The position numbers and the translations under genes were made by a program. A stretch of DNA of 64,000 nt, taken from Pseudonocardia parietis. GTDB lineage: Bacteria; Actinomycetota; Actinomycetes; Mycobacteriales; Pseudonocardiaceae. Location of the stretch: the NCBI RefSeq assembly GCF_017876315.1, contig NZ_JAGINU010000001.1, forward strand, positions 3,658,001 to 3,722,000. Reading direction: 5' to 3'. The notes under the pieces were generated by a model that made no database searches, was not told the DNA's origin, and saw nothing but the letters and a program-made list of their open reading frames with translations. Position 1 is the first letter of the stretch; each line of letters starts with the position of its first letter. Shown here one piece after another: positions 13,382 through 29,658 of this stretch.

Positions 13382-13410
13382 ATAGTAGATGAGTGTCCAG
13401 TATATGAACT
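13382..13410. promoter_or_regulatory. AT-rich shared promoter/operator motif, copy 2
   Basis: The 39-bp space between nitF and comA holds ATAGTAGA (13382-13389), then GTGTC after three bases, then GTATATGAACT. The minus strand reads TCTACTAT seven bases before the nitF ATG. The plus strand gives TATATG nine bases before the comA ATG. Both genes thus appear to have leaderless or very short leaders from overlapping promoters. The motif matches copies at 9760 and 29659. Confidence 0.55.
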
Positions 13411-13413
13411 AGG

Positions 13414-15128: not shown

Positions 15129-16492
15129 CCGACTCGCCGGTCTACGCCCACCTCTGGGCGACCCCGGAGCTGGAGGAGCTGCTCGGTGAGCAGGCCCGCT
15201 GGCAGCGCTGGCTCGACGTCCTCGTGGTGCTGGCCCGGGTCCAGGCCCGCGCCGGTGTGGTCCCGGAGGCGTCCGCCCGGGTGATCGCCGAGGCGGCGCG
15301 GGTGGAGCGCATCGACTGGGAGCTCGTCGCCGAGCAGACCCGCCGGACCTCGCATTCCACGCTCGGGCTCATCCGTGGTCTGCGCGCCGTGCTGCCGGCC
15401 GAGGTCCGCGAGCACGTCTACGTCGGCGCCACCGTGCAGGACCTCACCGACACCTGGTTCGGGCTGCTGATGCGCGACGTCGGCGACCTGGTCCGGCGCG
15501 ACCTGCGGGCCGTCGAGGCCGCCGTGCTCCGGCTGGCCCGGACCCACCGTGACACCCCGATGGCCGGGCGCACCCACGGCCAGCCCGGGGCGCCGGTCAC
15601 CTTCGGGCTCAAGGCGGCATCATGGGCCGACGAGCTGCGACGGCACCTCGACCGGGTACGGGAGGGTCGGTCCCGCTGGGCGGTCGGCCAGCTCGGCGGC
15701 GCCGTCGGAGCGCTGGCCTTCCACGATGCGTCCGGGGTGGACCCGGTCGCGCTGCGCCGCGACTTCTGCGCCGAGCTGGGGCTGGCCGATCCCGGCATCT
15801 CCTGGCTGACCAGCCGGGACCGGATCGCCGAGTTCGGCTGGGTGCTGGCGGCCGTGTGCGGAACCCTCGCCCGGATCGGTGGTGAGGTCGTGGAACTGCA
15901 GCGACCGGAGATCGGCGAGCTCACCGAGCCGGCCCGGCCGGAGGCCGTCGGCAGCATCACCATGCCGCACAAGCGCAACCCCGAGGTCGGCGAGCATCTG
16001 GACACGCTCGCCCGGCTCGGCCGGTCCTCGGCGGGGGTCCTGCTCGAGGGGATGGTCGCCCTGCACGAGCGGGACGGGCGCGGCTGGAAGGCCGAGTGGG
16101 TCGCCCTGCCCGAGGTCTGCCTGCTCACCGGAACGTCGCTGCAGCTCGCCGGCGAGCTGGTGGCGGGCCTGGAGGTGCATCCGGAGGCGATGCGCGCCAA
16201 CCTGGACCGCTTCGGTGACCGGCTCGCTTCCGAGCGCGTACTGGGCGCGCTGAGCGTCCGGATCGGCAAGCACGCGGCCCAGGAGCTGTTGCACGAGCTG
16301 CTCGCACCCACCTCGTCGGCGGCCGGTGCCACCGGTGACCTGGCGCAGCGGCTGGAGGAACGCGGGATCGCCACGGCCGCCGAGGTGCGCGAGTGGGCCG
16401 CCCGATCGCCGGTGCGGTCGGCGACCGCCATGGTCGACGAGGTCCTGGATCGCGCGGCGTCCGCCCGCGCGGCCGAGGAGGCGGCGCCGTGA
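15113..16492 (+). CDS. fumarase/aspartase-superfamily lyase (XcbC/XcbD-like, first copy)
   Basis: A 459-residue member of the fumarase/aspartase superfamily, nearest in look to adenylosuccinate lyase and 3-carboxymuconate cycloisomerase. The superfamily signature is GSITMPHKRNPE at residues 280-291; conserved region 1 is near TSHSTLGLI and region 2 is MAGRTHGQPGAPVTFG. In Xanthobacter autotrophicus Py2, two members of this superfamily (XcbC1, XcbD1) act after the ComA homologue; XcbC1 eliminates phosphate from phosphosulfolactate to give sulfoacrylate. This gene and the lyase at 17484 are the matching pair here; which one does which step is not clear. The GTG start is set by GGGGAG six bases upstream. 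Confidence 0.82.
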   Translation: MVTRLTDSPVYAHLWATPELEELLGEQARWQRWLDVLVVLARVQARAGVVPEASARVIAEAARVERIDWELVAEQTRRTSHSTLGLIRGLRAVLPAEVREHVYVGATVQDLTDTWFGLLMRDVGDLVRRDLRAVEAAVLRLARTHRDTPMAGRTHGQPGAPVTFGLKAASWADELRRHLDRVREGRSRWAVGQLGGAVGALAFHDASGVDPVALRRDFCAELGLADPGISWLTSRDRIAEFGWVLAAVCGTLARIGGEVVELQRPEIGELTEPARPEAVGSITMPHKRNPEVGEHLDTLARLGRSSAGVLLEGMVALHERDGRGWKAEWVALPEVCLLTGTSLQLAGELVAGLEVHPEAMRANLDRFGDRLASERVLGALSVRIGKHAAQELLHELLAPTSSAAGATGDLAQRLEERGIATAAEVREWAARSPVRSATAMVDEVLDRAASARAAEEAAP

Positions 16493-17487
16493 GCGACCGC
16501 GTCCGGCTCGCGGTGCTGCCGACGCCGGTGCTGTCCGCCGAGCGGCTGCACGCCGTGCTGGGCGGTGACCCGATCTGGGTCAAACGGGACGACCTGACCG
16601 GATTCGGTGTGGCGGGCAACAAGGCCCGGCCACTCGAGTTCCTGCTCGGCGACGCGGTGCGGCGTTCCCGGGACCTGCTCGTCACCGGAGGTGGGCCGGA
16701 CTCGAACTTCGTGGCGGCCGCGGCGCTGGCCGCCCGGGTCACCGGGCTCGGCTGCGACGTGGTGACGACCGTCGCCGACGGCACCCCGGACGGCGCGAAC
16801 CTGCAGCTCGCACGGGCCGCGGGGGCACGGCTGCACCGGGTGGCCGAGCGCCGCGAGCAGATCGACAGCGTGGTGGCGGAGCTGGCCGCGGACCGGACCG
16901 CGCAGGGATACCGACCGGTGGCCGTCCCCCGTGGCGGGTCCACCCCGATCGGTGCGGTCGGGTTCGCCCGGGCGGCGCACGAGCTCGCCGACCAGGTCGC
17001 GGGCGGTCTGCTCCCGGAGCCCGCCGTGATCGCGATCGCCGTCGGGTCGGGTGGGAGCGCGGCGGGGCTGCTGGCCGGGCTGGCCGCCACCGGGTTGCGC
17101 AGCAGGCTGCTCGGACTCTCGGTCAGCCGGCCGCCCGCGGAGGCGGACGCGGTCGTCCGGCGGCTCGCCACGGGATGTGCCGCCGTGCTCGGGGCGCCTG
17201 CGCCCGACCCGGACCGGTGGGAGATCCGCGACGCCCGCGGGCCCGGGTTCGGCGTCGCCGGTCCCACCGACCGGGCCGCCGCGGTCCTGGCCCTGCGCAC
17301 CGAAGGCCTGCTGCTCGACGACACCTACGGCGCGAAGGCGTTCGCCGGGACCGTGCGCCGAGCACGGACCGGCGGTACCGGTCCCGTCCTGTACTGGCAC
17401 ACCGGCGGGCTCCCGTCCGCGGTCGCTCACCTCGGTGACACCGCGGACGCGGCCGATCCGCCAGATCTCGGAGGAGACCTGCCGTGA
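16489..17487 (+). CDS. PLP-dependent D-cysteine desulfhydrase/ACC deaminase-family enzyme (XcbE-like)
   Basis: A 332-residue fold-type II PLP enzyme. The cofactor lysine is Lys45 in GVAGNKARPLEFLL, the phosphate loop is VGSGGSAAGLLAG, and the C-terminal WHTGGLPS is typical of D-cysteine desulfhydrase and ACC deaminase. In bacterial coenzyme M synthesis a PLP enzyme of this family (XcbE1) works with ComA and the two lyases. Here it lies between both lyase genes, with GTGA overlaps on both sides, so the set is ordered comA, unknown, lyase, PLP enzyme, lyase. It would handle an amino-sulfonate intermediate or deliver sulfur; the exact chemistry is not readable from the sequence. Confidence 0.83.
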   Translation: MSDRVRLAVLPTPVLSAERLHAVLGGDPIWVKRDDLTGFGVAGNKARPLEFLLGDAVRRSRDLLVTGGGPDSNFVAAAALAARVTGLGCDVVTTVADGTPDGANLQLARAAGARLHRVAERREQIDSVVAELAADRTAQGYRPVAVPRGGSTPIGAVGFARAAHELADQVAGGLLPEPAVIAIAVGSGGSAAGLLAGLAATGLRSRLLGLSVSRPPAEADAVVRRLATGCAAVLGAPAPDPDRWEIRDARGPGFGVAGPTDRAAAVLALRTEGLLLDDTYGAKAFAGTVRRARTGGTGPVLYWHTGGLPSAVAHLGDTADAADPPDLGGDLP

Positions 17488-19025
17488 CCGAACTGCTCCC
17501 CGGCGGAGGACCCGCCCCGCGTGGTGGCGCCGCCCCCGAACTCGTCGAGTCCGGGTTCCACCTGGAGAACGCGGACGCCCCGTTCCTGCACCACGGCCTC
17601 AACCTGGCCGACATCGCGCACGTGCTCGACCTGCGCCGCCGGGGCCTGGTCCCGGCCGGGATGGACCGGACGTTGCTCGACCTGCTCCTGGACACCGTGT
17701 CCGTACCCGCCGAGGAGTTCCCCTACGACCCCGCGTACGGCGAGCCGTACAACTCGCGGGAGGCCTACTTCGTCGCCCGGGTCGGTGACGTCGCCGGCTG
17801 GTTGCACGCCGGCCGGCCCCGGCGGGAGGCGGTCCGGATCGCGTTGCGGATCCATGTCCGGCGCCAGATCGCCGAACTGGCCGCCGAGGCGACGCGGTTC
17901 ACCACCGTGACGGCCGCACGGTCGACCGAACACCTGCGGACCGTGATGCCCGACCAGACCTACCTCCAGCAGGCCCAGCCCTCGACGTTCGGGCACTACC
18001 TGCTCTCGTTCGCCTACCCGGCACTGCGCGACGCCCGGCGGCTGCTCGTCGAGCTCGACGAGGTCGACTGCAGCCCGGGTGGTGCCGGCTGCGTCAACGG
18101 CACCCGGCTGCTCGACGACCGTGCCGTGGTCGCCGACCTGCTGGGCTTCTCCGGGGTCATCGAGCACACCCGGGACGCGATGTGGCAGGTCGACGGGTTC
18201 GTGCACGTCCTGGCGACGGCGGCGAGCCTGGTGTCGACGCTGAGCAAGCTCGCCGAGGATCTCGAGATCTGGGCGTCGGCCGAGTTCGACTTCGTCGATC
18301 TGGCCGACGGTTTCACCCGGGCGAGCGTGCTCATGCCGCAGAAGCGCAACCCCTACTCGCTGGCCATCATCCGCGGGGCCTGCGGGGTCCTGATCGGACG
18401 GATCAGCGGGTTCCTCGCGGTGGCCAAGAGCCCGTCCGCGCGCAGTGACAACCTGATCTACGCCTACGGCGAGGTGCCGCGGGCGCTCGACCTCGCGTTG
18501 CGGATCACCCGGCTGGCCACCGGCGTCGTCAGCACCCTGCGGGTGAACGCGGACCGGATGGCGCAGGAGGTCCACCGGGGGTACAGCCAGGCGACCGACC
18601 TGGCGGAGCACCTCGTGCAGACCTGCGACATCGACTACCGCTCCGCCTACCTCGTCGTCGGGCGGGCGGTGCGCGCCGCCGCCCGCGACGGCGTCCCCGG
18701 GGTCGCGATCACCGGTGAGCGTGTCGACGAGGCGGCCCGTGAGCACCTGGGACGCTCGCTCGGGCTCACCGGGACCGACCTGTCCGACGTCCTCGATCCG
18801 TGGCGGATCGTGCTGTCCCGCTCGTCCGTGGGCGGGGCCGCCCCGGACGAGGTGAGCCGGATGGCCACCGATGTGCGGGAGCGGGCGGCCGAGTCGGGCG
18901 CGATCGCCGATCGCCGGCTCGACGACTTCGCCCGCAGCGAACGGACCCTGCTGGCGACCGCCCGGGCCGTCGTCGACGAGGCGGCGGGCGATGACGCCCC
19001 CGCCCTCCGGAAGGAGCCCTCATGA
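17484..19025 (+). CDS. fumarase/aspartase-superfamily lyase (XcbC/XcbD-like, argininosuccinate lyase type)
   Basis: A 513-residue lyase closest to argininosuccinate lyase in its visible motifs: LVSTLSKLAEDLEIWASAEF and the signature MPQKRNP at residues 284-290, followed by YSLAIIRG. The N-terminal half has RSTEHLRTVMPDQTYLQQAQPSTF-like text, the argininosuccinate-lyase substrate region in altered form (key pieces MPDQTYLQQAQP and TFGHYLLSF). An arginine-pathway role is unlikely because no other arg gene is near and the gene is locked between the PLP enzyme and allG by 4-bp overlaps. It is the second superfamily lyase expected for a bacterial coenzyme M pathway. The C-terminal region is longer than in argininosuccinate lyase. 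Confidence 0.82.
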   Translation: MTELLPGGGPAPRGGAAPELVESGFHLENADAPFLHHGLNLADIAHVLDLRRRGLVPAGMDRTLLDLLLDTVSVPAEEFPYDPAYGEPYNSREAYFVARVGDVAGWLHAGRPRREAVRIALRIHVRRQIAELAAEATRFTTVTAARSTEHLRTVMPDQTYLQQAQPSTFGHYLLSFAYPALRDARRLLVELDEVDCSPGGAGCVNGTRLLDDRAVVADLLGFSGVIEHTRDAMWQVDGFVHVLATAASLVSTLSKLAEDLEIWASAEFDFVDLADGFTRASVLMPQKRNPYSLAIIRGACGVLIGRISGFLAVAKSPSARSDNLIYAYGEVPRALDLALRITRLATGVVSTLRVNADRMAQEVHRGYSQATDLAEHLVQTCDIDYRSAYLVVGRAVRAAARDGVPGVAITGERVDEAAREHLGRSLGLTGTDLSDVLDPWRIVLSRSSVGGAAPDEVSRMATDVRERAAESGAIADRRLDDFARSERTLLATARAVVDEAAGDDAPALRKEPS

Positions 19026-20458
19026 CCGGCACGAACTCGAACGTCGTCCGCCTCCCCGAGCGGATCGAGGTGCTCAACATCGGCCTGCCGATGTTCGCCG
19101 ACGCCGTGCGTGCGCAGGACGGACAGGCGCTCCACATCGACTGGCGCCCACCGGCCGACGGCGACCGGGACCTGGTCCGCGCGCTGGAGGCGCTCTACGC
19201 CGACCCGGCGGTCGACCGCGCCAACGCCGAGGTGGTCCGCCGGCTCGACGTCGGCGTCCCGTCGCTGGTGACCGTCGCACCGGCGGCCGAGGTGGTGCCC
19301 GGGCTGCCGGACCGGACGCTGCTGCACTGCGGGCCGGCCATCGGCTGGGACCGGGTGTGCGACCCGCTGCGCAGGTCGATGCGGGCCGCGACCGTCGCCG
19401 AGGGCTGGGCGACCGACGTCGCCGGGGCCGACCGGCTGCTCGCCCGCGGCGACGTCGCACTACAGCCCGCCAACGAGTACGACAGCGTGGTGCCGATGGC
19501 CACCGCGATCGGTCCCTCGACACCGATGCTGGTGGTGGACAACCCCGGTGACGGCGACGGGACGCCGCACCGCGCGTTCGCACCGCTGAACCAGGGGCCG
19601 GGGGAGACGGCGTGGTTCGGCCGGGACACCGACGCGGCCGTCGAGCGGCTCCGGCTGCTGCGTGACACCTGCGGCCCTGCCGTGGCGTCGATCCTCGAGG
19701 AGGCCGGCCCGCTGGACGTGCTCGCGCTCGCCGCCCAGGGCGTCGCGATGGGCGACGACCTGCACATGCGCACCCAGGCCGCGACCAACCTGCTGACCCG
19801 CACCTGGCTGCCGCACATCGCAGGCCTGCCGGACGGCCGGCGCGAGCCGTTCGCCCGCTACCTGGGCGGCAACCACCTCTTCTACCTGACGCTCGCGATG
19901 GCGGCCGCCAAGGCCCTCACCCTGTGGGCCGCCCAGGTCCCCGGCTCGACGATCGTGACGTCGATGGCCCGCAACGGGACCACCTTCGGGATCCGGACCT
20001 CCGGCTCGGAGACCTGGTACGTCACCGACGCTCCGCCGGTCGGGGACGCGCTGTACTACGCGGGCTACGGGCCCGACGACGCCGCGCCCGACATCGGTGA
20101 CAGTGCCGTGCTGGAGCTGGTCGGGCTGGGCGGCCCGGCGGCCGGCAACTCGCCGTCGGTGGCGGCGTTCCTGGGTGGGTCGATGGCCGACGCGGCCGCG
20201 GCCACCGAGGGGTTCCGCCGGATCTGCGCCGGCACCAGCAGCCGATTCACGCTGCCCGCGATGGGATTCTCGGGCTCACCGATCGGGGTGGACCTGCGGT
20301 TGGTGGTGGAGACCGGCATCACCCCGAAGGTGACGACCGGGATCCTGCACGCCCACTCGGGGGAGGGCCAGGTCGGTGCGGGGGTGGCGACGGCACCGCA
20401 GGCCTGCTTCACCGAGGCGCTGCGCGCCGTCGCAGCCGGCCGTTCCGGGAGGCGGTGA
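19022..20458 (+). CDS. allG: AllG/YlbE-family transcarbamoylase subunit (DUF1116)
   Basis: A 478-residue DUF1116 protein, the family of Escherichia coli YlbE (AllG). Typical stretches are IEVLNIGLPMFADAVRAQ, DDLHMRTQAATNLLTR, FLTLAMAAAKA-like YLTLAMAAAKAL and VTSMARNGTTFGIR. AllF (FdrA), AllG and AllH together form the oxamate transcarbamoylase that phosphorolyses oxalurate to carbamoyl phosphate and oxamate. The gene overlaps the upstream coenzyme-M-type lyase (ATGA) and the downstream allH (GTGA), so the transcarbamoylase subunits are co-translated with the sulfonate pathway. The partner subunit FdrA is encoded 6.6 kb away on the other strand. The true carbamoyl substrate here is unknown. 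Confidence 0.85.
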   Translation: MTGTNSNVVRLPERIEVLNIGLPMFADAVRAQDGQALHIDWRPPADGDRDLVRALEALYADPAVDRANAEVVRRLDVGVPSLVTVAPAAEVVPGLPDRTLLHCGPAIGWDRVCDPLRRSMRAATVAEGWATDVAGADRLLARGDVALQPANEYDSVVPMATAIGPSTPMLVVDNPGDGDGTPHRAFAPLNQGPGETAWFGRDTDAAVERLRLLRDTCGPAVASILEEAGPLDVLALAAQGVAMGDDLHMRTQAATNLLTRTWLPHIAGLPDGRREPFARYLGGNHLFYLTLAMAAAKALTLWAAQVPGSTIVTSMARNGTTFGIRTSGSETWYVTDAPPVGDALYYAGYGPDDAAPDIGDSAVLELVGLGGPAAGNSPSVAAFLGGSMADAAAATEGFRRICAGTSSRFTLPAMGFSGSPIGVDLRLVVETGITPKVTTGILHAHSGEGQVGAGVATAPQACFTEALRAVAAGRSGRR

Positions 20459-21267
20459 GCACGGACTGCGACCGCGGGGCGGCATTCGCCGAGCTGACCG
20501 GGGCCGCCCGGCGGACCGGCGCGCTGCGGGGGCGGGTCGTGTCGGTCCATCGCCGGGCGGTCTACCTGCGGTTCGACGACGTGCTGGTCGCGCTGGCAGG
20601 GCCCGGGGTCGAGGCCGGCCCGCTGCACCTGCGTGGCCCGGCGCTCCCGCCCGCCGGTACCGGTGAGGCGGTCCGCTTCGACGGCTCCCGGGTCGCGGCC
20701 CGGCGCTGGGCGGTGCGCTGCGACGTCCCCGAGCGGATCGGAGCCCTGCCCGGCCCGGCGGAGCTGGCTCGTGCCCGCCGGGCCGACCCGGCGGCCGGAC
20801 TCCGGTTTCCGGACGAGCCCGATGTCGCTGTCGACGCGGTGGTGGCGGCGGTCCGGAACGGGGACGTCCCCGGTGCGGCGGCGCTGCTGGGGGGACGCGG
20901 GCCGGGTCTGACCCCGGCCGGCGACGACGTGCTCGCGGGCCTGCTGCTGGTCGCCCGGGCGATGTGGGGCCCGGCGGCCGAGCCGTGGCTGGCCGGCACG
21001 GTGGACCGGGTGCGCACCACCGAGCACGCACGGGCGTTCCTGTACTGGGCCGCCCGCGGCCAGGGGCTCGCACCCGTCCACGACTGGCTCGCCGCCGTGG
21101 TCTCCGGCTCCCGCGACGACCGGCATCGGCTGGAGCGCCGCATCGCCCGGATCGGGGCCAGCTCGGGCCGGAGCATGGTCGCCGGCCTGCGGCTCGGGCT
21201 CGGTCAGCTGCCGGAGTCGCCGGTGGAGACCCAGGTCAGCACCGCGACCGCCGGGCCGGGATTGTGA
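20455..21267 (+). CDS. allH: AllH/YlbF-family transcarbamoylase subunit (DUF2877)
   Basis: A 270-residue DUF2877 protein, the family of E. coli YlbF (AllH). It shows VSVHRRAVYLRFDDVLVAL near the N-terminus, the family motif LLGGRGPGLTPAGDDVLAGLLL, and the C-terminal IARIGASSGRSMVAGLRLG. The glycine/threonine motif resembles an anion or phosphate loop. It completes, with allG and fdrA, a three-subunit AllFGH-type enzyme. The GTG start overlaps the allG stop. The last 64 bp overlap the end of the convergent XRE regulator gene, and this appears to be the end of the comA operon. Confidence 0.85.
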   Translation: MSTDCDRGAAFAELTGAARRTGALRGRVVSVHRRAVYLRFDDVLVALAGPGVEAGPLHLRGPALPPAGTGEAVRFDGSRVAARRWAVRCDVPERIGALPGPAELARARRADPAAGLRFPDEPDVAVDAVVAAVRNGDVPGAAALLGGRGPGLTPAGDDVLAGLLLVARAMWGPAAEPWLAGTVDRVRTTEHARAFLYWAARGQGLAPVHDWLAAVVSGSRDDRHRLERRIARIGASSGRSMVAGLRLGLGQLPESPVETQVSTATAGPGL

Positions 21268-21836
21268 CAGTGGACCCGGTGACCGCCCGGGACGTGCAGT
21301 GAGTCGTCGTGGTCGAGTGCGTACCACTCGCCGGCGATCGTCACCTCGACGGTCCCGGCCAGCACCAGGAGCAGGTCCTCGGCGAGCCGGGCGCGTACCT
21401 CGAGCGCCGCGCCCGGTGCGATCTCGACGACCGCTCCCTGCAGCGCGAACCGGTCGGGTGGACCGGTGAGCCCGGCCCGCGTCGTCCCGGGTAGCGACGG
21501 CAGGGGCGGCCGGTCCGCACCACGTACCAGGTGGGCCACGGGTACCGGATCGCCGTCGCCGTCGACGAAGTACCCGATCGGGCGGTCGAGCGCCGCGGCC
21601 AGCTTCAGCAGCGTCGTGACCGTCGGGATCATGTCGCCCTTCTCCAGCTTGTGGATCGCGGCGGACGACACGTCGGCGCGGCGCGCCAGCTGCTGCAGGG
21701 ACAGGCCGCCCTGCTGGCGGAGCCGATAGAGCTTCGGGCCGATCGAGCGCACGATCGCCTCGCGGTCGGCCTCGCCGGTGCCGGGATCGTTCGCCGTGGC
21801 CGGGTGGTCGTCGGCATCGGTTGCGGATCCGCTCAT
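21204..21836 (-). CDS. XRE-family regulator with C-terminal cupin
   Basis: A 210-residue regulator. A helix-turn-helix of the XRE type lies at about residues 32-88 (LRQQGGLSLQQLARRADVSS, IHKLEKGDMIPTVTTLLKLA), and a cupin domain at about 125-205 ends with LHVPGGHRVHCHNPGPAVAV. This pair is common in regulators of amino acid, polyamine or aromatic catabolism, where the cupin binds a small effector. AAGGAG precedes ATG 21836. It is divergent from the flavoprotein gene at 21968 and is the only dedicated regulator inside the island, so it is the best candidate to control the divergent promoter (see repeats at 21856) and perhaps the wider set. Confidence 0.88.
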   Translation of the reverse strand: MSGSATDADDHPATANDPGTGEADREAIVRSIGPKLYRLRQQGGLSLQQLARRADVSSAAIHKLEKGDMIPTVTTLLKLAAALDRPIGYFVDGDGDPVPVAHLVRGADRPPLPSLPGTTRAGLTGPPDRFALQGAVVEIAPGAALEVRARLAEDLLLVLAGTVEVTIAGEWYALDHDDSLHVPGGHRVHCHNPGPAVAVLTWVSTGDSGS

Positions 21837-21967: not shown

Positions 21968-23314
21968 GTGCCGCACAAGACCGTGATCGTGGGAGGCGGT
22001 GCCGGTGGCCTGGGTGCCGCCGGTGGGGTGAAGGCGGCTCGGCCCGACGCCGAGGTGGTCGTCTACACCGAGTACGAGGACGTCGCCTACAGCCCGTGCG
22101 GGATCCCCTACGTCCACGGCGGGGAGATCCCGGACTTCGAGCGATTGTTCCTGGCCACCAAGGACGCCTACGTCGAGGCGGGGATCGACGTCCACTACGA
22201 GACACGGGTCAGTGCGATCGACACCCGGGCCAAGACCGTGACCGTCGACGGCGCGGAGCCGGTCGGCTACGACACGCTCGTGCTCGCGACCGGTTTCGAC
22301 TACGCCGATCCGGGTGTCCCCGGGGGTGACCTGGAGGGCCTCTACTACGTCAAGAACATCCGCGCCGCGATGGAGTGGGACAAGTTCCTCGACACGGTGA
22401 AGCGGGCGGTGGTGATCGAGGCGAGCCCGCTGGGCGTCGAGATGACGACCTCGCTGGCCCATCGCGGTATCGAGACACACCTCGTGGACCCCCACCCCTG
22501 GCCGCTGGCGGAGATGGCCGACCCCGACATCATGGCGCCGGTCGAGGAGTCCTGGCGCGAGCTCGGGGTGCACACGCACTTCAACACCACCCTCAAGGGG
22601 TTCATCGGCCAGGGCTCGGTGTCCGCTGTGGACACCTCCGACGGCGAGATCCCCTGCGACCTGGTGGTGGTCGCGACCCACAAGCAGCCCAACGCCCGGC
22701 TCGCCGCGGCGGCGGGCATCACGATCGGTACGACCGGCGGCATCGTCGTCGACGAGCGGATGGCGACGTCCGCGCCGGGGGTGTACGCGGTCGGCGACTG
22801 CACCGAGATCCCGCACGGGCTGACCGGGGTGCCGCTGCAGGGTCTGACCGGCAGCCACGCCTACGCCCAGGGCAAGACGGGCGGGACCAACGCCGGCGGC
22901 GGATCGAGGAACTACCGGGCCGTGTACGTCCCCTGGGGAACGCCTGCGGGCAAGTGGGTGATCGGGGGCGCGTCGTTCGGCGAGACCACGGCCACCGCGC
23001 TCGGGATCCCGTACGTGCTCGGGCAGGCCCAGGGCATCTCCCGGGCCCGCTACTACCCGGGGGTCAAGCCGGTGAAGGTGAAGCTGCTGGCCGAGCCCGG
23101 CTCGCTGCGGCTCATCGGCGCCCAGATGGTCGGGCAGGAGGGGATCAAGGAACGTGCCGACTTCCTCGCGACCGCGGTCCGCTTCGGACTCACCCTGCAC
23201 GATCTCGCGACGATGGAGAACGTCTACTCCCCGGCGATCGGCGCGCTCAACGAACCGATCGTGATGGCCGCCAACAACGGTCTGGACGAGCTGCGCAAGG
23301 CCGGGAGGTCGTAG
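21968..23314 (+). CDS. FAD-dependent pyridine-nucleotide-disulfide oxidoreductase (CoA-disulfide reductase-like)
   Basis: A 448-residue flavoprotein. The FAD motif is VGGGAGGLGAAGGVKAA, and a single redox cysteine, Cys44 in AYSPCGIPY, is placed as in CoA-disulfide reductase and NADH oxidase. The second FAD motif is GVYAVGDCTEIPHG, and a dimerisation domain follows. Unusually, the second Rossmann loop, normally GxGxxG/A, reads EASPLG at residues 151-156, so binding of NAD(P)H may be changed. With a coenzyme-M-type pathway next to it, reduction of a low-molecular-weight disulfide is attractive. It lacks the paired cysteines of 2-ketopropyl-CoM carboxylase. AAGGGGG precedes the GTG start. Confidence 0.85.
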   Translation: MPHKTVIVGGGAGGLGAAGGVKAARPDAEVVVYTEYEDVAYSPCGIPYVHGGEIPDFERLFLATKDAYVEAGIDVHYETRVSAIDTRAKTVTVDGAEPVGYDTLVLATGFDYADPGVPGGDLEGLYYVKNIRAAMEWDKFLDTVKRAVVIEASPLGVEMTTSLAHRGIETHLVDPHPWPLAEMADPDIMAPVEESWRELGVHTHFNTTLKGFIGQGSVSAVDTSDGEIPCDLVVVATHKQPNARLAAAAGITIGTTGGIVVDERMATSAPGVYAVGDCTEIPHGLTGVPLQGLTGSHAYAQGKTGGTNAGGGSRNYRAVYVPWGTPAGKWVIGGASFGETTATALGIPYVLGQAQGISRARYYPGVKPVKVKLLAEPGSLRLIGAQMVGQEGIKERADFLATAVRFGLTLHDLATMENVYSPAIGALNEPIVMAANNGLDELRKAGRS

Positions 23315-23316
23315 CC

Positions 23317-23577
23317 ATGGGATTCACCAGGTGGCTCCGGGAGAACTCCGAGCACTACCTGATGGTGGGCGCGCACGAGCAGCTCGCCCGCCGCTACCCC
23401 GGGACCCGGCGACCGCGACCCCCGCACGGACCGGTCGAGCTGCTCTGGCTGCGGGTGTTCGCACCGGTCTACCGGACGCTCCCGTGGCCGCTGCGCCACC
23501 GCATCCTGCGGGCGATGCCGGGCAGCCACCGGCGCAGCTGGACGGAACCGCCACGACCGTCAGGTCCGGCGGTCTGA
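23317..23577 (+). CDS. small basic uncharacterised protein
   Basis: An 86-residue protein that starts two bases after the flavoprotein stop. I do not recognise it. It is rich in Arg, Pro and Trp, with an amphipathic stretch VELLWLRVFAPVYRTLPWPL that could lie on a membrane, and a disordered basic tail. Its only support is tight spacing within an apparent flavoprotein-to-DsrE-like operon and codon use like its neighbours. A small partner protein of the flavoprotein is possible. Confidence 0.5.
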   Translation: MGFTRWLRENSEHYLMVGAHEQLARRYPGTRRPRPPHGPVELLWLRVFAPVYRTLPWPLRHRILRAMPGSHRRSWTEPPRPSGPAV

Positions 23578-23630: not shown

Positions 23631-24116
23631 GTGGCTCAGATCGTTGGTGAGCGGGTCCAGAAGGGCGACGCGATCGTCGACTACGAGGACAAGGTCTTCG
23701 AGGACATCCAGGCCGAACCCGGCGAGAAGGCCTACATCTTCATGCACACCGTCCCGTTCGAGGGATCGGTGGGACTGGTCAACATGCTCACCGCGACCCG
23801 GATCCGCCGGAAGGGTTTCGACGCGAGCATCGTCATGTTCGGCCCGGCGTCGCTGATGGTCTCCGCGTCCCGCGGATATCCGAAGGTCGGCGACGAGGCG
23901 TTCCCGGGCGCGCTCGGCTACAACAAGCAGCTGCAGACCTTCATGGACGAGGGCGGCAAGATCTACGCCTGCCGGTTCTCCGCCGCGGCGCTGTACGGCA
24001 TGCGCGAGGTGGACATGATGGAGGGCGTCAAGCCGATCAACCCGCTGGACGTTCTCGACGCCCAGCTCACCGCCCGGCGCGAGGGCGCGCTGGTCATGCA
24101 GACCTGGACGGTCTGA
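23631..24116 (+). CDS. nitB: MSMEG_0572/Sll0783-family protein (NitB, DsrE-like)
   Basis: A 161-residue protein of the MSMEG_0572/Sll0783 nitrogen-starvation family, with a DsrE/DsrF-like alpha/beta fold. Recognisable parts are EDIQAEPGEKAYIFMHTVPF, EGSVGLVNMLTATRIRRKGF, VGDEAFPGALGYNKQLQTFM and PINPLDVLDAQL. In other bacteria the gene opens Nit1C clusters, usually next to a nitrilase that supports cyanide use; here a nitrile hydratase follows instead. It has a conserved-looking Cys in KIYACRFS. AAAGGAG lies eight bases before the GTG start. Its molecular function is unknown. Confidence 0.83.
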   Translation: MAQIVGERVQKGDAIVDYEDKVFEDIQAEPGEKAYIFMHTVPFEGSVGLVNMLTATRIRRKGFDASIVMFGPASLMVSASRGYPKVGDEAFPGALGYNKQLQTFMDEGGKIYACRFSAAALYGMREVDMMEGVKPINPLDVLDAQLTARREGALVMQTWTV

Positions 24117-24163: not shown

Positions 24164-24203
24164 GCTGGTCGTGGCGCCGCAGCCAGGAGAGGAGCGAACT
24201 GCG

Positions 24204-24872
24204 GTGGACTCGATCGCCGACATGGGCGGTATGCAGGGTTTCGGGCCGGTTCCGGTCCCGGTGGCCGACGAGCCACCCTTCGCCGAGACGTGGGAGGGGC
24301 GCGCCTTCGCCCTGACCGTGCTGACGATGGGCCGGATCTCGGGGCAGAACCTGGACGCGTTCCGCCACGCGCTGGGTCGCCAGCATCCCCTGGACTACCT
24401 GAGCGACGGCTACTACGGCCGTTGGCTCAACGCCGCCGAGCTGATGCTCACCGACAGCCGGATCCTCGCTCCCGGTGCGGTCGACGCCCGAGTGCGGCGC
24501 AATCTGGGGGAGGACGTGACCGAACCGGCTCTCCCCGAACCCCGGCGCCCGGACTACGCCCCGACGGCGGCCGGCTCGTTGCGTGAGGTGGACGACCCGC
24601 CGCGGTTCGCCGTCGGCGACACCGTGGGCACGCGGGACATGCATCCGACGGGCCCGACGAAGCTTCCCCGGTACCTGCGGCGCCGGACCGGGACCGTCAC
24701 CGCGATCCGGCCCGCGCACGTCCTTCCCGACACCCATGCGGTGTTCGAGGGGGAGAACGCCCAGCACGTCTACACCGTGAGTTTCCGTTCCCGGGATCTG
24801 TGGGGCCCGGACGCCGAGGACTTCACCCTGCACGCCGAACTCTTCGAGAGCTACCTGGAGCCCGACTCATGA
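24204..24872 (+). CDS. nthB: nitrile hydratase, beta subunit
   Basis: A 222-residue beta subunit. It opens with [15 protein letters not shown], the standard beat of this family (IHDLGGMDGFG in others). It includes [24 protein letters not shown], and a C-terminal SH3-like barrel ([32 protein letters not shown]). The alpha/beta enzyme hydrates nitriles to amides in the cytoplasm. GTG 24204 follows GGAGAGGA. The gene order beta, alpha, activator, with ATGA/GTGA overlaps, is that of cobalt-type nitrile hydratases. Confidence 0.93.
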
Positions 24873-25459
24873 GCGGTCCGACAGACCGGATCCCGCCGGC
24901 ACTGCGCACCGAGGCGCTGGAGCAGCTGCTCGTCGAACGCGAGCTCGTCGACCCGGCGGTGATGGACAAGTTCATCGCCACCTACGAGCGCGACGTCGGC
25001 CCGCTGAACGGTGCGAAGGTCGTCGCGCGGGCGTGGACCGATCCCGGGTACCGCGAGCGGCTGCTCGCGGACGGTACGGCGGCGATCAAGGAGATGGGCT
25101 TCGGCGGGCCCCAGGGCGAGCACATCGTGGTCCTGGAGCAGGCCGCGGACGTCCACCACGTGGTGGTGTGCACCCTGTGCTCCTGCTACCCGTGGCCGGT
25201 GCTCGGGCTGCCGCCCAGCTGGTACAAGGATCCGGCGTACCGCTCGCGGGTGGTGCGGGAGCCACGTGCGGTGCTGTCGGAGATGGGCCTGGACGTGCCT
25301 TCCGACCGCCGGATCGAGGTCTGGGACTCGAGCGCGGAGGTGCGGTACCTGATCCTGCCCCGCCGCCCGGCCGGCACCGAGGACTGGGATGCCGAGCAGC
25401 TGACGGGCCTGGTCACCCGGGACGCGATGGTCGGGGTCGCCGAGGTGAGCGGCCCGTGA
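24869..25459 (+). CDS. nthA: nitrile hydratase, alpha subunit (cobalt type)
   Basis: A 196-residue alpha subunit carrying the metal claw CTLCSC at residues 101-106 ([19 protein letters not shown]). Thr at the second position (rather than Ser) is typical of the non-corrin cobalt enzymes. The middle and last cysteines are normally oxidised to sulfinate and sulfenate. [19 protein letters not shown] is the second family marker. The ATG overlaps the beta stop codon. The native substrate could be an aliphatic nitrile or a cyanide-derived compound. Thiocyanate hydrolase is an alternative, but that enzyme has a separate, split beta-like subunit. Confidence 0.94.
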
Positions 25460-25845
25460 CCGGCACGTGCGGGACGCCGACGCCGGTGCTCGACGTCGAG
25501 GGGGCCGCGGCCCCGCCCCGGGACAACGGTGAGCTGGTCTTCGCCGCGCCCTGGGAGAGCCGGGCCTTCGGCATGGCGGTCTCGCTCTCGGAGCAGGGCG
25601 TGTTCGCCTGGGACACGTTCCGGGACCGGCTGGTGGCGCGGATCGCGGACCGGGAGGCCGGAGCGGGACCGGATGCGCCGGACTTCCACTACTACACCTG
25701 CTGGCTCGCCGCGCTGGAGGACGTGCTGGTCGGGTCGGGCCTGATCGCGACGGACGACGTCGTCGCCCACTCGGCGGCCCTCGCCGCCCGGCCGCCCGGA
25801 CACGACCACGACGACGGTGAGCACGGCCACGGCCACGGGCACTGA
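25456..25845 (+). CDS. nitrile hydratase activator (beta-like metallochaperone) with His-rich tail
   Basis: A 129-residue protein resembling the N-terminal part of the beta subunit ([37 protein letters not shown]), as in the P14K/NhlE-type activators that load cobalt by swapping alpha subunits. The tail carries at least eight His among its last 16 residues ([14 protein letters not shown]), likely a cobalt or nickel reservoir. It overlaps the alpha stop by four bases. No separate cobalt transporter is visible in the window. A perfect terminator hairpin follows 17 bases later. Confidence 0.87.
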
Positions 25846-25925: not shown

Positions 25926-27095
25926 TCAGCGCCCCGCAGGCACCGACCGCACCTCCTCGTAGACCGCCGTGTGCGCCGCCGCGCTGCGGGGCCAGGTGAA
26001 CGCCGGGAGCACCTCCCGGCCGCCGGCCCGGAGCCGGTCCCGCAGGGCGTGGTCCGTCGCCAGGTCGTGCATGGCGCCGGCGATGGCGACCGGGTCCCCG
26101 ACCGCGGGCATCAGGGCGTTCCGCCCGTCCTGCAGGTACTCGTGGAACACCGGGAGGTCGGACGCGACGACCGGCAGGTCCGCCGCCATCGCCTCCAGGA
26201 CCGCCAGCCCCCAGCCCTCCTTGACCGAGGGGAACAGCAGTGCGTCCGCGCTGCGGTACCACTCGGCGAGCGTGCGGTCGTCGAGCGTGCCGAGCAGCAC
26301 GACGTCCCGTCCGAGCTCCAGGCCCATCCCGGGCAGGGCCGCCAGCGCCTCCTCGCGGTAGGCGGCGTAGTCCTGGAAGGAGTGGCCACCCACGATCGCC
26401 AGGACCGGGGGAGGAGTGGGGGAACCGGACCGGTGCAGCCGGGCGAGGGCCTCGAACGAGTAGCGGGTGCCCTTGCGCGGCTCGACCCCGCCGACCCCGA
26501 GGAACACGAACCGGTCGGCCCCGGCCCCGAGCGAGCGCCGGAGGCGGGCCCGCCGGTCCGGCTCGACCGGCGGGAACCGCGCCGGGTCGACACCGTTGGG
26601 CACGACGGTCGCGGTGACGCCGTAGTCGTCGCGCAGGATCCGTTCCCACTGCCGGCTCACCACGAGTACCCGGTCCGGTTCGGTGATCGCGGCCTTCTGG
26701 CACTCGATCAGCGCCGGGGTGGTGAAGTCGTCGACGTGGTGCACGGTCCGCACGACCGACACCGGCGCCCCGGCGTCGCGGACCCGGGCCGCCGCGCGGG
26801 CGGCGATGCAGTCCTGGGCGTGCAGGATGTCGAAACGACCGGCCAGGTCACCGAGCGCCACGCTCAACGCGTCGATGGAGGCGTGCACGCGGTCGGTGAG
26901 CGTGCCGGAGCGCTCCGGTGCCGGCAGGACCGTGTACGGCACGGTCGTCGGGCGGAACAGGCCGGCCGCCGGGTCGCCCTGGGTGACCAGGTGTACCCGG
27001 TGCCCGGCGGCGTGCAGCGCCTCGGCGAGCTGGAGCGTGTGCACCATGCCTCCGCGCGGCGACGTGGAGTGGGTGACCAGCGCCAGCCCGGTCAC
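25926..27095 (-). CDS. MSMEG_0565-family glycosyltransferase (GT4)
   Basis: A 389-residue GT-B glycosyltransferase of group 1. The N-terminal SPRGGMVHTLQLAEAL, the mid-protein PNGVDPARFPPVEP and the C-terminal nucleotide-sugar site SVKEGWGLAVLEAMAADLP are clear. A glycosyltransferase of this kind (MSMEG_0565 family) is a regular neighbour of the Sll0783-Sll0787 genes in actinobacteria. It suggests that the pathway attaches or removes a sugar on a small molecule, but no acceptor is known. Its GTG start overlaps the stop of fdrA, so it is the last gene of the carbamate kinase-fdrA-glycosyltransferase operon. Confidence 0.85.
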   Translation of the reverse strand: MTGLALVTHSTSPRGGMVHTLQLAEALHAAGHRVHLVTQGDPAAGLFRPTTVPYTVLPAPERSGTLTDRVHASIDALSVALGDLAGRFDILHAQDCIAARAAARVRDAGAPVSVVRTVHHVDDFTTPALIECQKAAITEPDRVLVVSRQWERILRDDYGVTATVVPNGVDPARFPPVEPDRRARLRRSLGAGADRFVFLGVGGVEPRKGTRYSFEALARLHRSGSPTPPPVLAIVGGHSFQDYAAYREEALAALPGMGLELGRDVVLLGTLDDRTLAEWYRSADALLFPSVKEGWGLAVLEAMAADLPVVASDLPVFHEYLQDGRNALMPAVGDPVAIAGAMHDLATDHALRDRLRAGGREVLPAFTWPRSAAAHTAVYEEVRSVPAGR

Positions 27096-28648
27096 AGCGG
27101 ACGCTCCACGATCTTCGGGTCACGGACGGCGATCGCCGCGGCGGCGAGCGCGGCGCGCGCCGCCGTCCACGTGACGATGCAGCCCGCCTCGGCGAACGCC
27201 GCACGCTGGCGCTCGAACCCCTGCGGGTCCTGGTCGGTACCGAGGACGTAGACCACGATCCGCGGACCGCCCCGGCCGATGATCTCCGCGCAGAGCGGGG
27301 CGAGCTCGGAGGCGGGATTGGGGTGCGAGCCGTGCCCGAGCACGACATCGAGCAGGACGACACCCACGTCGCGGTCCTCGCCGGTCGCCCGCAGGTGCTC
27401 GATCCGGGCCTCCGGATCGATCATCGGGTGCGGCCGGCCCTTCGTGAACTCCTCCTCGCCCAGGTCGAGGCAGACGTGGGCCCCGGCCGGGGCGGGAAGG
27501 CCGTAGCGCTCGTCCAGCGGCGTGTTGGAGTGAACCGGTCCCAGCTCCCGCTCGAGCAGCACGAGCGCCTCGTAGCAGAGGGTCCCGCCGGAGAACAGGC
27601 CGCGGACCAGCCGCCGCTGCTCGGGCAGGTCGCGCACGGCTGCCGTGACCTGGTCGCGCAGGCCGGCCGTGGTGTTCGGCGCGGGGTGGCCCATCCGGCG
27701 CAGCATGGCCAGCACGCCGCCCTCGAGGGTGGAGGACCGGGTCACCGTGGGGGGATCGTCGTCGTCGGATCCGTCGAGCCCGATCAGTGCCGCGACCAGC
27801 GGGGTGTCACCTGCTTCGGCCAGCACACCGCGGGCGACCTCGGGGTCCGGTGGCTTCGACACCAGGAGGATCGCGTCGGTCTCCGGATCGGCGGCCAGCG
27901 ATCGGACGGCGAGCCGGCCCATCGGCCCGCCGACGGCCGCGGTGAGGTCCCGCCCGCCGAGCCCGATGACGTGCCGCACCCCGACCCCGGCCCGGTCCAG
28001 CAGACTCGCGGCCTCCTGCGCGCCGGTCCCCGCCGCCGCGACCACGGCGACCGAGCCGGTGCGGGTGGCGGGATCACCGACCACGTTGGCGAAGCCGAGG
28101 CAGGTCCGGTCCAGCATCGCGGTCCCGGCGCCGGGCCCCATCACGAGCAGGCCCTGCTCGACGGCCCGCTGCTTGAGCGCGACCTCGTCCTCGACGGAGA
28201 CGTTGTCGCTGAACAGCAGGACGTGCAACCCGCCGGCGAGTGCCTTGGTCGTCTCCAGCGGGGCGTAGTCGCCCGGCACCGAGATCACGGCGACCGTGCT
28301 CCCGGGCTGCCGGTCGAGGGCTTCGGCGAGCGTGCGCGGATCGCTCTCCTCGCGCGTGCCGGGGCCGTCGCCCCGGGCGGAGAACATCGCCGCACGCCCG
28401 GCGTCCTCGGCGGCGGCCGCGACCTGCTCGTCGTCGGCCCGCACGGCCAGGACGAGGTCGCCGGCCCCGGCGCCGTCCCAGCCCGCCGGATCGAACCCGT
28501 TCTCGGTGAGGGTGGCGAGATTGGCCTCGGTGGCCATCGCGGCGGTCGCCCACTCGACGCCCTCGACCGCGCGCATGGCACGGGTCCCGGAGAGCTGGAC
28601 GACCGAGTCCAGGTAGGTGTCGCGCAGCACCGTCACGACGGTGGTCAT
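27092..28648 (-). CDS. fdrA: FdrA/AllF, acyl-CoA synthetase-like transcarbamoylase subunit
   Basis: A 518-residue FdrA-family protein. It has the succinyl-CoA-synthetase-like layout: an N-terminal DTYLDSVVQLSGTRAM domain, a CoA-binding-like fold (GPGAGTAMLDRTCLGFANVV, AAAGTGAQEAASLLDRAG), and a ligase-like C-terminal part with SGGTLCYEALVLLE and DVVLGHGSHPNPA. In E. coli this protein (AllF) is one of three subunits of oxamate transcarbamoylase; AllG and AllH are encoded at 19022-21267 here. It overlaps the carbamate kinase stop by four bases. The split of one enzyme over two operons of opposite strand suggests shared control of the island. Confidence 0.88.
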   Translation of the reverse strand: MTTVVTVLRDTYLDSVVQLSGTRAMRAVEGVEWATAAMATEANLATLTENGFDPAGWDGAGAGDLVLAVRADDEQVAAAAEDAGRAAMFSARGDGPGTREESDPRTLAEALDRQPGSTVAVISVPGDYAPLETTKALAGGLHVLLFSDNVSVEDEVALKQRAVEQGLLVMGPGAGTAMLDRTCLGFANVVGDPATRTGSVAVVAAAGTGAQEAASLLDRAGVGVRHVIGLGGRDLTAAVGGPMGRLAVRSLAADPETDAILLVSKPPDPEVARGVLAEAGDTPLVAALIGLDGSDDDDPPTVTRSSTLEGGVLAMLRRMGHPAPNTTAGLRDQVTAAVRDLPEQRRLVRGLFSGGTLCYEALVLLERELGPVHSNTPLDERYGLPAPAGAHVCLDLGEEEFTKGRPHPMIDPEARIEHLRATGEDRDVGVVLLDVVLGHGSHPNPASELAPLCAEIIGRGGPRIVVYVLGTDQDPQGFERQRAAFAEAGCIVTWTAARAALAAAAIAVRDPKIVERPL

Positions 28649-29607
28649 CCTCGGGCCCCCACGATCCGGGTGCCGACGGTGTCGTCGGCACGGTCCTCAC
28701 CGCTGTCCAGCGACGGCCCGGCACGTTCCGCGGTGGTGATCACCGCGGTGGTCCCGCCCTCGCGCAGGAACCGGACCGCGGCGCGCACCTTCGGCCCCAT
28801 CGAGCCCTCGGGGAACTGGCCGTCCTCGAGATGCTTGACCGCCTCGTCGACGGTCATCTCGGTGACCGGTCGCTGCTCCGGCCTGCCGAAGTCCAGGTGC
28901 ACCTTCTCGGTGTCGGTGACCAGGACCAGCGCCTCGGCGTTGACCGAGCTGGCGACCCGCTGCGCGGTGAGGTCCTTGTCGATGACGGCGTCGATCCCCT
29001 CCAGGCCCGGGTCGCCGGCGATCACCGGGATACCGCCGCCACCCCCGGCGACCACGATCATGTGCTGGTCGATCAGGGCGCGGATCGCGTCGATCTCGAC
29101 GATGCCGACCGGTCGCGGCGACGGTACGACCCGGCGGTGGCCGCGGTCGCCGTCACGGGCGACCACCCAGCCGCGCCTGCCGGCGAGCTCCTGGGCCTGT
29201 GCCTCGGTGAAGAACGGCCCGACCGGCTTGGTGGGCGTGCCGAACGCCGGGTCGTCCGGATCGACGAGCACGTGGGTCACGACGGAGACCACGCCGGCCA
29301 GCCGGCCCCGCCCCTCGGTCAGCAGCGCGAGGGTGAGCAGGCTCCCGAGCTGGCCCTGGGACATGGCGCTCGTGGAGTACAACGGCTGGGCCGGGACGAT
29401 GCCCGCGGCCTCCTCCTGCTGGATCGCGAGGTTCCCCACCTGCGGCCCGTTCCCGTGTACCAGTACGACGTTCCATCCGGCGTCGCGGAGCGCGCAGACC
29501 GCACGGGCCATCCGCTGCGCGTTCGCCGCCTGCTCGGCGTGTGTGCCCGACTCCCCGCTCCGTGTGATGGCGTTCCCGCCGAGTGCCACGACTGCAGTCT
29601 TGGGCAT
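28645..29607 (-). CDS. carbamate kinase
   Basis: A 320-residue amino-acid-kinase-fold enzyme with the carbamate kinase pattern: VVALGGNAITRSGESGT at the N-terminus, NVVLVHGNGPQVGNLAIQQEE, and the nucleotide loop MIVVAGGGGGIPVI. It makes ATP from ADP and carbamoyl phosphate, releasing carbamate (ammonia and CO2). Directly upstream of fdrA, it is the expected last step of an AllFGH pathway (AllK role), so the operon can conserve energy from a ureido compound. I chose ATG 29607 (MPKTAVVALGG); a GTG 15 bases upstream is the alternative. Confidence 0.92.
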   Translation of the reverse strand: MPKTAVVALGGNAITRSGESGTHAEQAANAQRMARAVCALRDAGWNVVLVHGNGPQVGNLAIQQEEAAGIVPAQPLYSTSAMSQGQLGSLLTLALLTEGRGRLAGVVSVVTHVLVDPDDPAFGTPTKPVGPFFTEAQAQELAGRRGWVVARDGDRGHRRVVPSPRPVGIVEIDAIRALIDQHMIVVAGGGGGIPVIAGDPGLEGIDAVIDKDLTAQRVASSVNAEALVLVTDTEKVHLDFGRPEQRPVTEMTVDEAVKHLEDGQFPEGSMGPKVRAAVRFLREGGTTAVITTAERAGPSLDSGEDRADDTVGTRIVGARG

Positions 29608-29658
29608 CAGTGCCCACCCCACCTTCCCGCCGGCCCGATCGATTGACGTCTACGATCC

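Follow-up and report, generated by a model that had tools for sequence, protein, structure and literature searches.

A CoA-disulfide-reductase-like flavoprotein subfamily with an altered NAD(P)H-binding loop, encoded with coenzyme M and nitrile-processing genes in Pseudonocardia parietis and other Actinomycetota

Introduction

In a stretch of 64,000 nucleotides from the genome of Pseudonocardia parietis (NCBI RefSeq assembly GCF_017876315.1, contig NZ_JAGINU010000001.1, positions 3,658,001 to 3,722,000 of the forward strand; hereafter the window), a gene for a flavoprotein resembling CoA-disulfide reductases (CoADRs), here called P0001, lies close to genes for the biosynthesis of coenzyme M (CoM). 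The known bacterial use of CoM is alkene and epoxide metabolism. An earlier sequence-only reading of the window had observed that the glycine-rich loop of the second Rossmann domain is replaced in P0001, and had suggested that the enzyme may have lost the use of NAD(P)H, taking electrons from another donor or working as a carboxylase-like or oxidase enzyme, possibly on a substrate related to CoM or cyanide. The question raised by this locus is, then, what such an enzyme does in such a neighbourhood.

The answer proposed here has parts of unequal strength. The altered loop is a trait of a whole subfamily, and bacteria would seem to put CoM to a further use, tied to a flavoenzyme. The claims made at the level of sequence are much firmer than the enzyme chemistry that we favour for P0001, in which CoM-SH would be oxidized and coupled to cyanide.

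The flavoprotein and its altered loop

P0001 shows the domains, the two FAD motifs and the fold of the flavoprotein disulfide reductase superfamily. Pfam recognizes a Pyr_redox_2 domain (167 bits) and the dimerisation domain (33.6 bits), both above their cut-offs; the FAD motifs, VGGGAGGLG at residues 8-16 and VGD at 275-277, are intact, and the single active-site cysteine, Cys44, stands in the context YSPCGIPY, so that it is followed by GIPY. The best NCBIfam model is that of CoADR (TIGR03385), although the score of 252.1 bits is far below the cut-off of 578.8; of the traits of that family, the single redox cysteine is present and the GxGxxG loop is not. The AlphaFold model of P0001 (mean predicted local distance difference test score 89.4, but below 50 for residues 419-425, which include Tyr420) is closest to 6ruz (Z 46.2, 437 residues aligned, root mean square deviation 2.2), with 5l1n, 6pfz and LbNOX scoring within 1 Z unit of it. 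Foldseek agrees that CoA-disulfide and persulfide reductases are the nearest folds, and 6ruz is also the best solved relative by sequence (E 3.7e-62). Among the listed relatives, the nearest named locus belongs to Pseudonocardia ammonioxydans (L051, 96% identity). The ratio of nonsynonymous to synonymous substitution rates (dN/dS) of the gene against three relatives is 0.11, 0.15 and 0.20; the gene is under purifying selection, which argues against its decay.

The subfamily was taken as P0001 together with the best 80 of 178 related genome loci (n = 81). Cys44 is invariant in this set, whereas the full GxGxxG at residues 151-156, which read EASPLG in P0001, is found in none of its members. Residue 151 is Glu in 72 sequences, Asp in four, His in two, and Gln, Lys and Gly in one each, being thus other than Gly in 80 of 81; Pro154 is invariant. 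What is still conserved around the loop is Gly156 (79/81), Glu158 (81/81) and the acidic Asp174 that follows the second strand (80/81). As controls, 12 of the 22 paralogues listed from the same bacterial family (33-39% identity) were compared, and all of those examined (33-38% identity) retain GxGYIG. GxGxxG is likewise present in the six own-genome paralogues whose loop was compared (14 being listed), and in all five plasmid-borne relatives examined, out of seven non-Methylocystis matches. Because the motif is absent from all 81 members examined and kept by the family and own-genome paralogues, the EASPLG-type loop is a subfamily trait rather than a one-off. The observations of the earlier reading on Cys44, the two FAD motifs and the replaced loop are therefore borne out.

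A second stretch has changed as well. In place of the (M/I/L)GLGVxPN of the paralogues, most of the subfamily has THKxPN, with Lys239 in all 81 sequences; in this family the stretch faces the nicotinamide. The near-universal disappearance of GxGxxG, together with the change in this nicotinamide-side motif, supports the view that the NAD(P)H site appears to have been lost, as the sequence-only reading had supposed. The opposite, thiol side is kept: Tyr420 is found in 78 of 81 sequences, and Tyr362 is invariant in an alignment of 47 (46 of the 80 relatives and the window protein). These probably serve the thiol site, as Tyr361 and Tyr419 do in the Staphylococcus aureus CoADR.

Three points weigh against an enzyme independent of NAD(P)H. 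The loss of GxGxxG is in itself no proof that NAD(P)H binding is lost. A strict GxGxxG is not needed for NADPH use in this superfamily, since 2-ketopropyl-CoM oxidoreductase/carboxylase (2-KPCC), which uses NADPH, reads GGSKTA. Finally, one divergent member of the subfamily (L176:9420-10691, given as locus:positions; 53% identity) reads GAGPVG at the loop. P0001 might thus be an ordinary reductase of CoM-disulfide or CoM-persulfide whose atypical loop still accommodates NAD(P)H, Rossmann folds being tolerant of some loop changes and Gly156, Glu158 and Asp174 being still in place. We consider this rather unlikely, however, because none of the 81 sequences has the full motif, because the first Gly, which 2-KPCC keeps, is replaced in 72 of them by a Glu that would lie near the pyrophosphate, and because the second nicotinamide-side motif is changed too. 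As to L176, it already carries the HK change of that second motif. In a FastTree phylogeny, in which 22 outgroup sequences separate from the subfamily with a support of 1.000, it pairs with L175 (EAGPLG; support 0.996) in a nested position, so that there was either more than one loss of the loop or a regain in L176; the idea of a basal L176 with the original loop was given up on account of this position.

In second copies of the flavoprotein gene found in Pseudonocardia genomes (L039:8944-10275 and L042:2505-3836), Cys44 has been lost along with the loop, and these copies adjoin all five CoM genes. Such copies lend something to the idea that P0001 itself is a catalytically dead protein with a structural or sensory role in the cluster, but the invariance of Cys44 in the 81 sequences, the thiol-side residues being among the most conserved, and the low dN/dS make it very improbable.

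Coenzyme M genes accompany the flavoprotein

The CoM genes reported earlier next to the flavoprotein gene are indeed there, the window containing XcbA, XcbC, XcbD, XcbE and ComA homologues. Their association with the flavoprotein was followed in two samples of genomes. Out of 390 genomes of the family, 39 have a close flavoprotein, of which 38 were used (G320, 72% complete, was left out), and 28 controls lacking it were hand-picked from the 351 others. XcbC is present in 38 of 38 flavoprotein genomes and in two of the 28 chosen controls, both of which have an epoxyalkane:CoM transferase (EaCoMT) of 75-76% identity. At that level, the transferase occurs in one of the 38 flavoprotein genomes, on a contig other than that of the flavoprotein.

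The second sample covered 396 genomes of the phylum, that of the window included, and gave 15 carriers of the flavoprotein at E<=1e-100. XcbC of at least 48% identity was found in 11 of these 15 and in one of 381 non-carriers. EaCoMT at E<=1e-40 is absent from all 14 carriers tested and present in the lone XcbC-positive non-carrier. In the two samples together, three genomes have a close XcbC without the flavoprotein, and all three have EaCoMT. Only XcbC matches of at least 48% identity were counted, because four of the five loci inspected with matches of 39-43% had no CoM neighbour (the fifth, in G485, has ComA).

A conserved cluster with C≡N-processing and carbamoyl-transfer genes

The proteins encoded around P0001 were searched with tblastn in the 80 related loci, all of them actinobacterial by record title except L106 and L113; many of these are short contigs, so that absence from a locus is not absence from the genome, and some genomes contribute two loci. 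The most constant companions are a small protein (79 loci), the MSMEG_0572 homologue (74) and a regulator (69). They are followed by the nitrile hydratase alpha subunit (48), ComA (48), XcbC (47), XcbD (47), XcbA (45) and XcbE (43), the glycosyltransferase (46), OsmC (45), the oxamate carbamoyltransferase subunits AllG (43), AllF (43) and AllH (32), carbamate kinase (40), the acetyltransferase (40), the sll0787 family protein (36) and the radical SAM protein (30). The cluster is thus conserved and mostly actinobacterial. Outside the phylum, the flavoprotein subfamily was seen in one Methylocystis species and in two metagenome-assembled genomes labelled Acidobacteria and Dormiibacterota. A plasmid of Methylocystis iwaonis encodes a 60%-identical flavoprotein together with MSMEG_0572, AllG- and AllF-like genes, Nit1C genes including a Nit6803-type nitrilase, and all five CoM genes.

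The C≡N-processing enzyme is not the same everywhere. Among the 80 loci, 48 have the nitrile hydratase alpha subunit, 15 have a PF04909 amidohydrolase, none has both, and 17, mostly contig ends, have neither (Fisher 8.5e-8 for the mutual exclusion, a value that ignores shared ancestry). When only the 50 loci that extend 8 kb or more downstream and 2 kb or more upstream are counted, the corresponding numbers are 34, 12, 0 and 4. That unrelated enzymes replace each other argues for one required C≡N step, and from this replacement the amidohydrolase would act on C≡N; it may represent a novel kind of hydratase for nitriles or thiocyanate. Examples of it where the nitrile hydratase is missing are L125:12119-12955, L078:12301-13164 and L075:8172-9008, and a sequence search of the PDB with it gave no match at E<=0.001. 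A weak nitrilase match (32%) occurs in L087. When the P. parietis genome was searched with the Methylocystis nitrilase, one distant match was found (E 2.1e-7, 29%), outside the window and far from the cluster.

The nitrile hydratase of the window is a standard one by sequence, of the Co type (CTLCSC). Hydrolysis of free thiocyanate was considered and rejected, the alpha subunit being recognized as nitrile hydratase (296 bits, above cut-off) and scoring 184 bits against a cut-off of 291 for thiocyanate hydrolase. The CoM and C≡N context of P0001 is, on these data, well supported. The earlier suggestion of a CoM- or cyanide-related substrate holds to this extent, gene context being what points to the substrate of P0001 itself.

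The MSMEG_0572 homologue is modelled with a DsrE/TusBCD fold (Z 15.9 to 3mc3, 120 residues, root mean square deviation 2.3), and its Cys111 is invariant in the homologues aligned (71 of 74 loci and the window); the predicted fold and this cysteine would be fitting for a sulfur or thiol relay. A reduced partner of this kind, or else a small reduced molecule bound in the remodelled nicotinamide pocket, might serve as the electron donor if P0001 were a reductase of CoM-disulfide or CoM-persulfide that recycles CoM-SH. In keeping with such a role, the nearest solved relatives of P0001 are disulfide and persulfide reductases, its thiol side is intact, and 74 of the 80 loci have a gene for the DsrE-fold protein in the neighbourhood. 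We nevertheless regard it as unlikely. There is no ferredoxin or flavodoxin among the query genes (recurrent neighbours beyond these were checked in six loci), and the reduction of CoM-disulfide is easy for an NADH-dependent CoADR. Moreover, GGGYIG is retained by the CoADR-like proteins whose genes adjoin ethene/CoM clusters. These last, the disulfide oxidoreductases (DSORs) of Nocardioides JS614 and Xanthobacter Py2, were considered as close kin of P0001 and discarded on account of that loop.

A possible route from cyanide to ammonia

Since Cys44, Tyr362 and Tyr420 have been retained while the loss is confined to the nicotinamide side, an oxidase is the alternative that we favour among those listed in the sequence-only reading. 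P0001 may be, though we put the chance at somewhat less than even, an NAD(P)H-independent CoM-SH oxidase of a nitrogen-scavenging pathway, coupling CoM-SH and cyanide to CoM-S-CN. CoM-SH would form a mixed disulfide with Cys44, and the electrons would pass to FAD and then to O2 or another acceptor. Cyanide would attack this mixed disulfide, or free CoM disulfide made by P0001, to give the organic thiocyanate CoM-S-CN. Nitrile hydratase, or in other genomes the unrelated amidohydrolase, would hydrate CoM-S-CN to CoM-S-C(O)NH2, whose phosphorolysis by the AllFGH transcarbamylase would give carbamoyl phosphate and regenerate CoM-SH. Carbamate kinase would then convert carbamoyl phosphate to ATP, ammonia and CO2.

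Some precedents are available for the single steps. Disulfides are cleaved by cyanide, and the product from cystine, beta-thiocyanoalanine, cyclises by intramolecular attack, as described in one report (PMC9291117); CoM has no amine, and CoM-S-CN should therefore persist until it is hydrated. The E. coli AllFGH enzyme interconverts oxalurate with carbamoyl phosphate and oxamate (PMC11326118). Carbamoyl phosphate could presumably be formed whether its carbamoyl group comes from N, O or S. If nitrile hydratase supplies AllFGH and carbamate kinase, its substrate would therefore be of the type X-CN, with sulfur as the likely X in view of the thiol made by the cluster.

The other CoM-based chemistry to be weighed is that of 2-KPCC, a CoM-using member of the same superfamily, by analogy with which P0001 would cleave or carboxylate a CoM thioether, namely a CoM adduct of the nitrile carbon. 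We find it improbable: P0001 lacks the cysteine pair and is only about 25% identical to 2-KPCC, along part of the sequence, and a high-identity EaCoMT occurs in only one of the 38 family flavoprotein genomes. The carboxylase option of the earlier reading thus loses most of its weight.

Several observations count against a CoM-SH oxidase that captures cyanide, and concern both the thiol and the nitrile. As regards the thiol, four carriers of the phylum sample (G466, G531, G710 and G777) have no XcbD, close XcbC or nitrile hydratase at the thresholds used, and a fifth (G491) has no XcbD match. CoM would therefore be the usual but not the sole partner of the flavoprotein, or another thiol would take its place there; in G466 and G777 the flavoprotein locus still has AllF, the glycosyltransferase, OsmC and the small protein. 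Because ComA, XcbC, XcbD and XcbE score below their NCBIfam cut-offs, the thiol of the cluster could be a CoM analogue. In addition, 35 of the 38 family genomes hold distant, methionine-synthase-like relatives of EaCoMT, while two have none. These matches show 25-49% identity over pieces of the query, with a best E of 6.8e-24; in several genomes a pair of such pieces spans most of it, and another CoM transferase may be among them.

As regards the nitrile, only five of 14 carriers of the phylum sample have this nitrile hydratase, and our scheme does not account for the AllF and AllG homologues that the Methylocystis species retains alongside its nitrilase. Cyanide is suggested by homology to Nit1C clusters, and another small nitrile is possible. 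In Mycobacterium smegmatis, nitrogen starvation raises expression of the MSMEG_0565-0572 operon, as measured on MSMEG_0572, by a factor of more than 500, and the operon is linked to resistance against peroxide and to an increased NADPH/NADP ratio, according to one study (PMC6039565). This redox role needs no cyanide and is not required by our scheme, and it is in this respect that the operon weighs against our proposal.

With these reservations, we put forward, still more tentatively than the oxidase itself, a previously unrecognised pathway of Actinomycetota and at least one alphaproteobacterium, in which CoM would be a recycled carrier that traps cyanide oxidatively and delivers a thiocarbamate to a transcarbamylase. 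If true, CoM would have a second role in bacteria, in organisms from Pseudonocardia to Nanopelagicales, and cyanide assimilation an energy-conserving route. Nit1C is linked to growth on cyanide and, in Pseudomonas, to cyanide assimilation, yet on our reading of one article (PMC11049912) no step has been assigned to several of its proteins. The cluster would add candidate Nit1C steps: a thiol carrier, oxidative capture, hydration, carbamoyl transfer and ATP formation. A literature search for coenzyme M with cyanide assimilation, in a scope that left outside most subscription papers and all preprints, gave no paper, and among the papers listed by broader searches no title or opening of an abstract describes this link.

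Organisation of the cluster

The cluster spans 11.4 to 31.8 kb of the window (Table 1).

Table 1. Features of the P. parietis cluster, with positions in the window
Feature	Position	Strand	Basis
OsmC-like peroxidase family protein	11411..12091	-	45/80 loci
sll0787 family AIR-synthase-like protein (true start inside stretch)	12388..13425	-	best match, below cut-off
Phosphosulfolactate synthase ComA/XcbB	13414..14199	+	best match, below cut-off
XcbA family protein (start approximate)	14226..15128	+	above cut-off
XcbD homologue (start approximate)	15113..16492	+	best match, below cut-off
XcbE homologue (start approximate)	16489..17487	+	best match, below cut-off
XcbC homologue	17484..19025	+	best match, below cut-off
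AllG, oxamate carbamoyltransferase subunit	19022..20458	+	profile match
AllH, oxamate carbamoyltransferase subunit	20455..21267	+	profile match
Divergent helix-turn-helix (HTH)-cupin regulator	21204..21836	-	69/80 loci
Sigma70-like promoter TTGACA-16-TATCGT upstream of P0001	21846..21873	+	sequence
Flavoprotein P0001, CoADR-like, 448 amino acids, GTG start	21968..23314	+	open reading frame confirmed
FAD-binding GGGAGG, residues 9-14, intact	21992..22009	+	sequence, alignment
Redox Cys44 codon	22097..22099	+	81/81 in subfamily
Altered second-Rossmann loop EASPLG, residues 151-156	22418..22435	+	sequence, alignments
Second altered motif T237-H238-K239 (L-G-V in paralogues)	22676..22684	+	Lys239 81/81
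Small conserved protein, 86 amino acids, between the P0001 and MSMEG_0572 genes	23317..23577	+	79/80 loci
MSMEG_0572/Sll0783 family protein (start codon uncertain), DsrE/TusBCD fold, invariant Cys111	23640..24116	+	profile, fold
Nitrile hydratase beta subunit	24171..24872	+	profile match
Nitrile hydratase alpha subunit, CTLCSC (Co-type) motif	24869..25459	+	profile, motif
Nitrile hydratase accessory protein	25456..25845	+	profile match
MSMEG_0565 family glycosyltransferase	25926..27095	-	profile above cut-off
AllF (FdrA) homologue, oxamate carbamoyltransferase subunit	27092..28648	-	best match, structure match
Carbamate kinase	28645..29622	-	profile match
MSMEG_0568 family radical SAM protein	30088..31269	+	profile above cut-off
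MSMEG_0567/Sll0786 family N-acetyltransferase	31266..31763	+	profile above cut-off

Profile scores are given here as bits over cut-off. The Nit1C-type models of MSMEG_0572 (220/109.9), radical SAM (392.3/303.7), GNAT (98.2/68.5) and glycosyltransferase (357.9/259.9) are all passed, while that of the sll0787 family is the best match but stays below (267.4/321.3). Among the CoM models, XcbA is above its cut-off (293/150), whereas ComA (221/280), XcbC (428/575), XcbD (574/600) and XcbE (225/450) are best matches below theirs. AllG (208/27) and AllH (67/25) exceed the cut-offs; the AllF homologue has the FdrA model as its best match, below cut-off (354/433), and matches the FdrA structure 3dmy with E 1.2e-61. 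Carbamate kinase passes the subfamily model (280/266) and is below that of arcC (334/358). The 86-amino-acid protein gave no match in Pfam and NCBIfam.

Just downstream of the promoter of P0001, at 21870-21900, lies a conserved AAACG...CATCAACCATGGTG element, which can be seen in several upstream regions out of 15 compared (from Pseudonocardia, Actinomycetospora and Nocardioides) and is a possible operator of the divergent HTH-cupin regulator. Control by GlnR was considered and set aside, because 80 upstream regions (the window and 79 loci) showed no excess of GlnR-type boxes over shuffles.

A plus-strand open reading frame at 11834-13423 was rejected as a gene, being the antisense of the sll0787-family gene. 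At one end, the cluster is adjoined by LarC, LarB and LarE genes for the synthesis of the nickel-pincer cofactor (7578-11471); these are present in 8/80 loci only and were for this reason left out of the model. A search of the whole genome for the LarA N-terminal domain gave no match, so that no user of this cofactor is accounted for. A 121-amino-acid open reading frame before the radical SAM gene (29726-30091) is weakly conserved (8/80 loci) and has no Pfam or NCBIfam match. At the other end, a large SARP-type regulator of 1061 amino acids (31764-34949, minus strand) adjoins the cluster and occurs in 23/80 loci.

Comparison with known systems

With CoADR and the NAD-dependent persulfide reductases (TIGR03385; 6ruz, 6pfz, 8a56), P0001 shares the fold, the FAD motifs, the redox cysteine and the thiol-site tyrosines, and it differs from them by an identity of only about 30-33% and by the altered NAD(P)H loop and nicotinamide-side motif. 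GliT/HlmI-type dithiol oxidases are thioredoxin-reductase-like and have two active-site cysteines (CxxC), while P0001 is CoADR-like and has one. The likeness to them is one of functional analogy, GliT, HlmI, DepH and DnoP being relatives of disulfide reductases that run as thiol oxidases (PMC11317636). With 2-KPCC, P0001 has the superfamily and the CoM context in common; however, 2-KPCC (Xaut_5048) has a redox-active cysteine pair where aligned P0001 shows a single Cys, its loop keeps the first Gly, and its neighbours are epoxide-pathway genes.

The alkene oxidisers Xanthobacter Py2 and Nocardioides JS614 have a CoM operon whose five genes are all in the window as well, in the JS614 order ComA-XcbA-XcbD-XcbE-XcbC and with 43-53% identity to JS614. 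The genomes with the P0001 cluster differ from alkene oxidisers in that 37 of 38 are without a close EaCoMT.

The Nit1C cluster (NitA-H) and the mycobacterial gpr cluster MSMEG_0565-0572 have the MSMEG_0572, radical SAM, N-acetyltransferase, AIR-synthase-like and glycosyltransferase genes in common with the cluster described here, which adds CoM synthesis, AllFGH and carbamate kinase. The window cluster lacks the NitC/Nit6803-type nitrilase of Nit1C; nitrile hydratase or the amidohydrolase is present in 63 of the 80 loci, and a nitrilase homologue in one.

Finally, the three AllFGH subunits and the carbamate kinase of E. coli all have homologues in the window. Unlike in E. coli, AllF is encoded apart from AllGH, and the adjacent annotated genes are those of nitrile and CoM metabolism rather than of allantoin.

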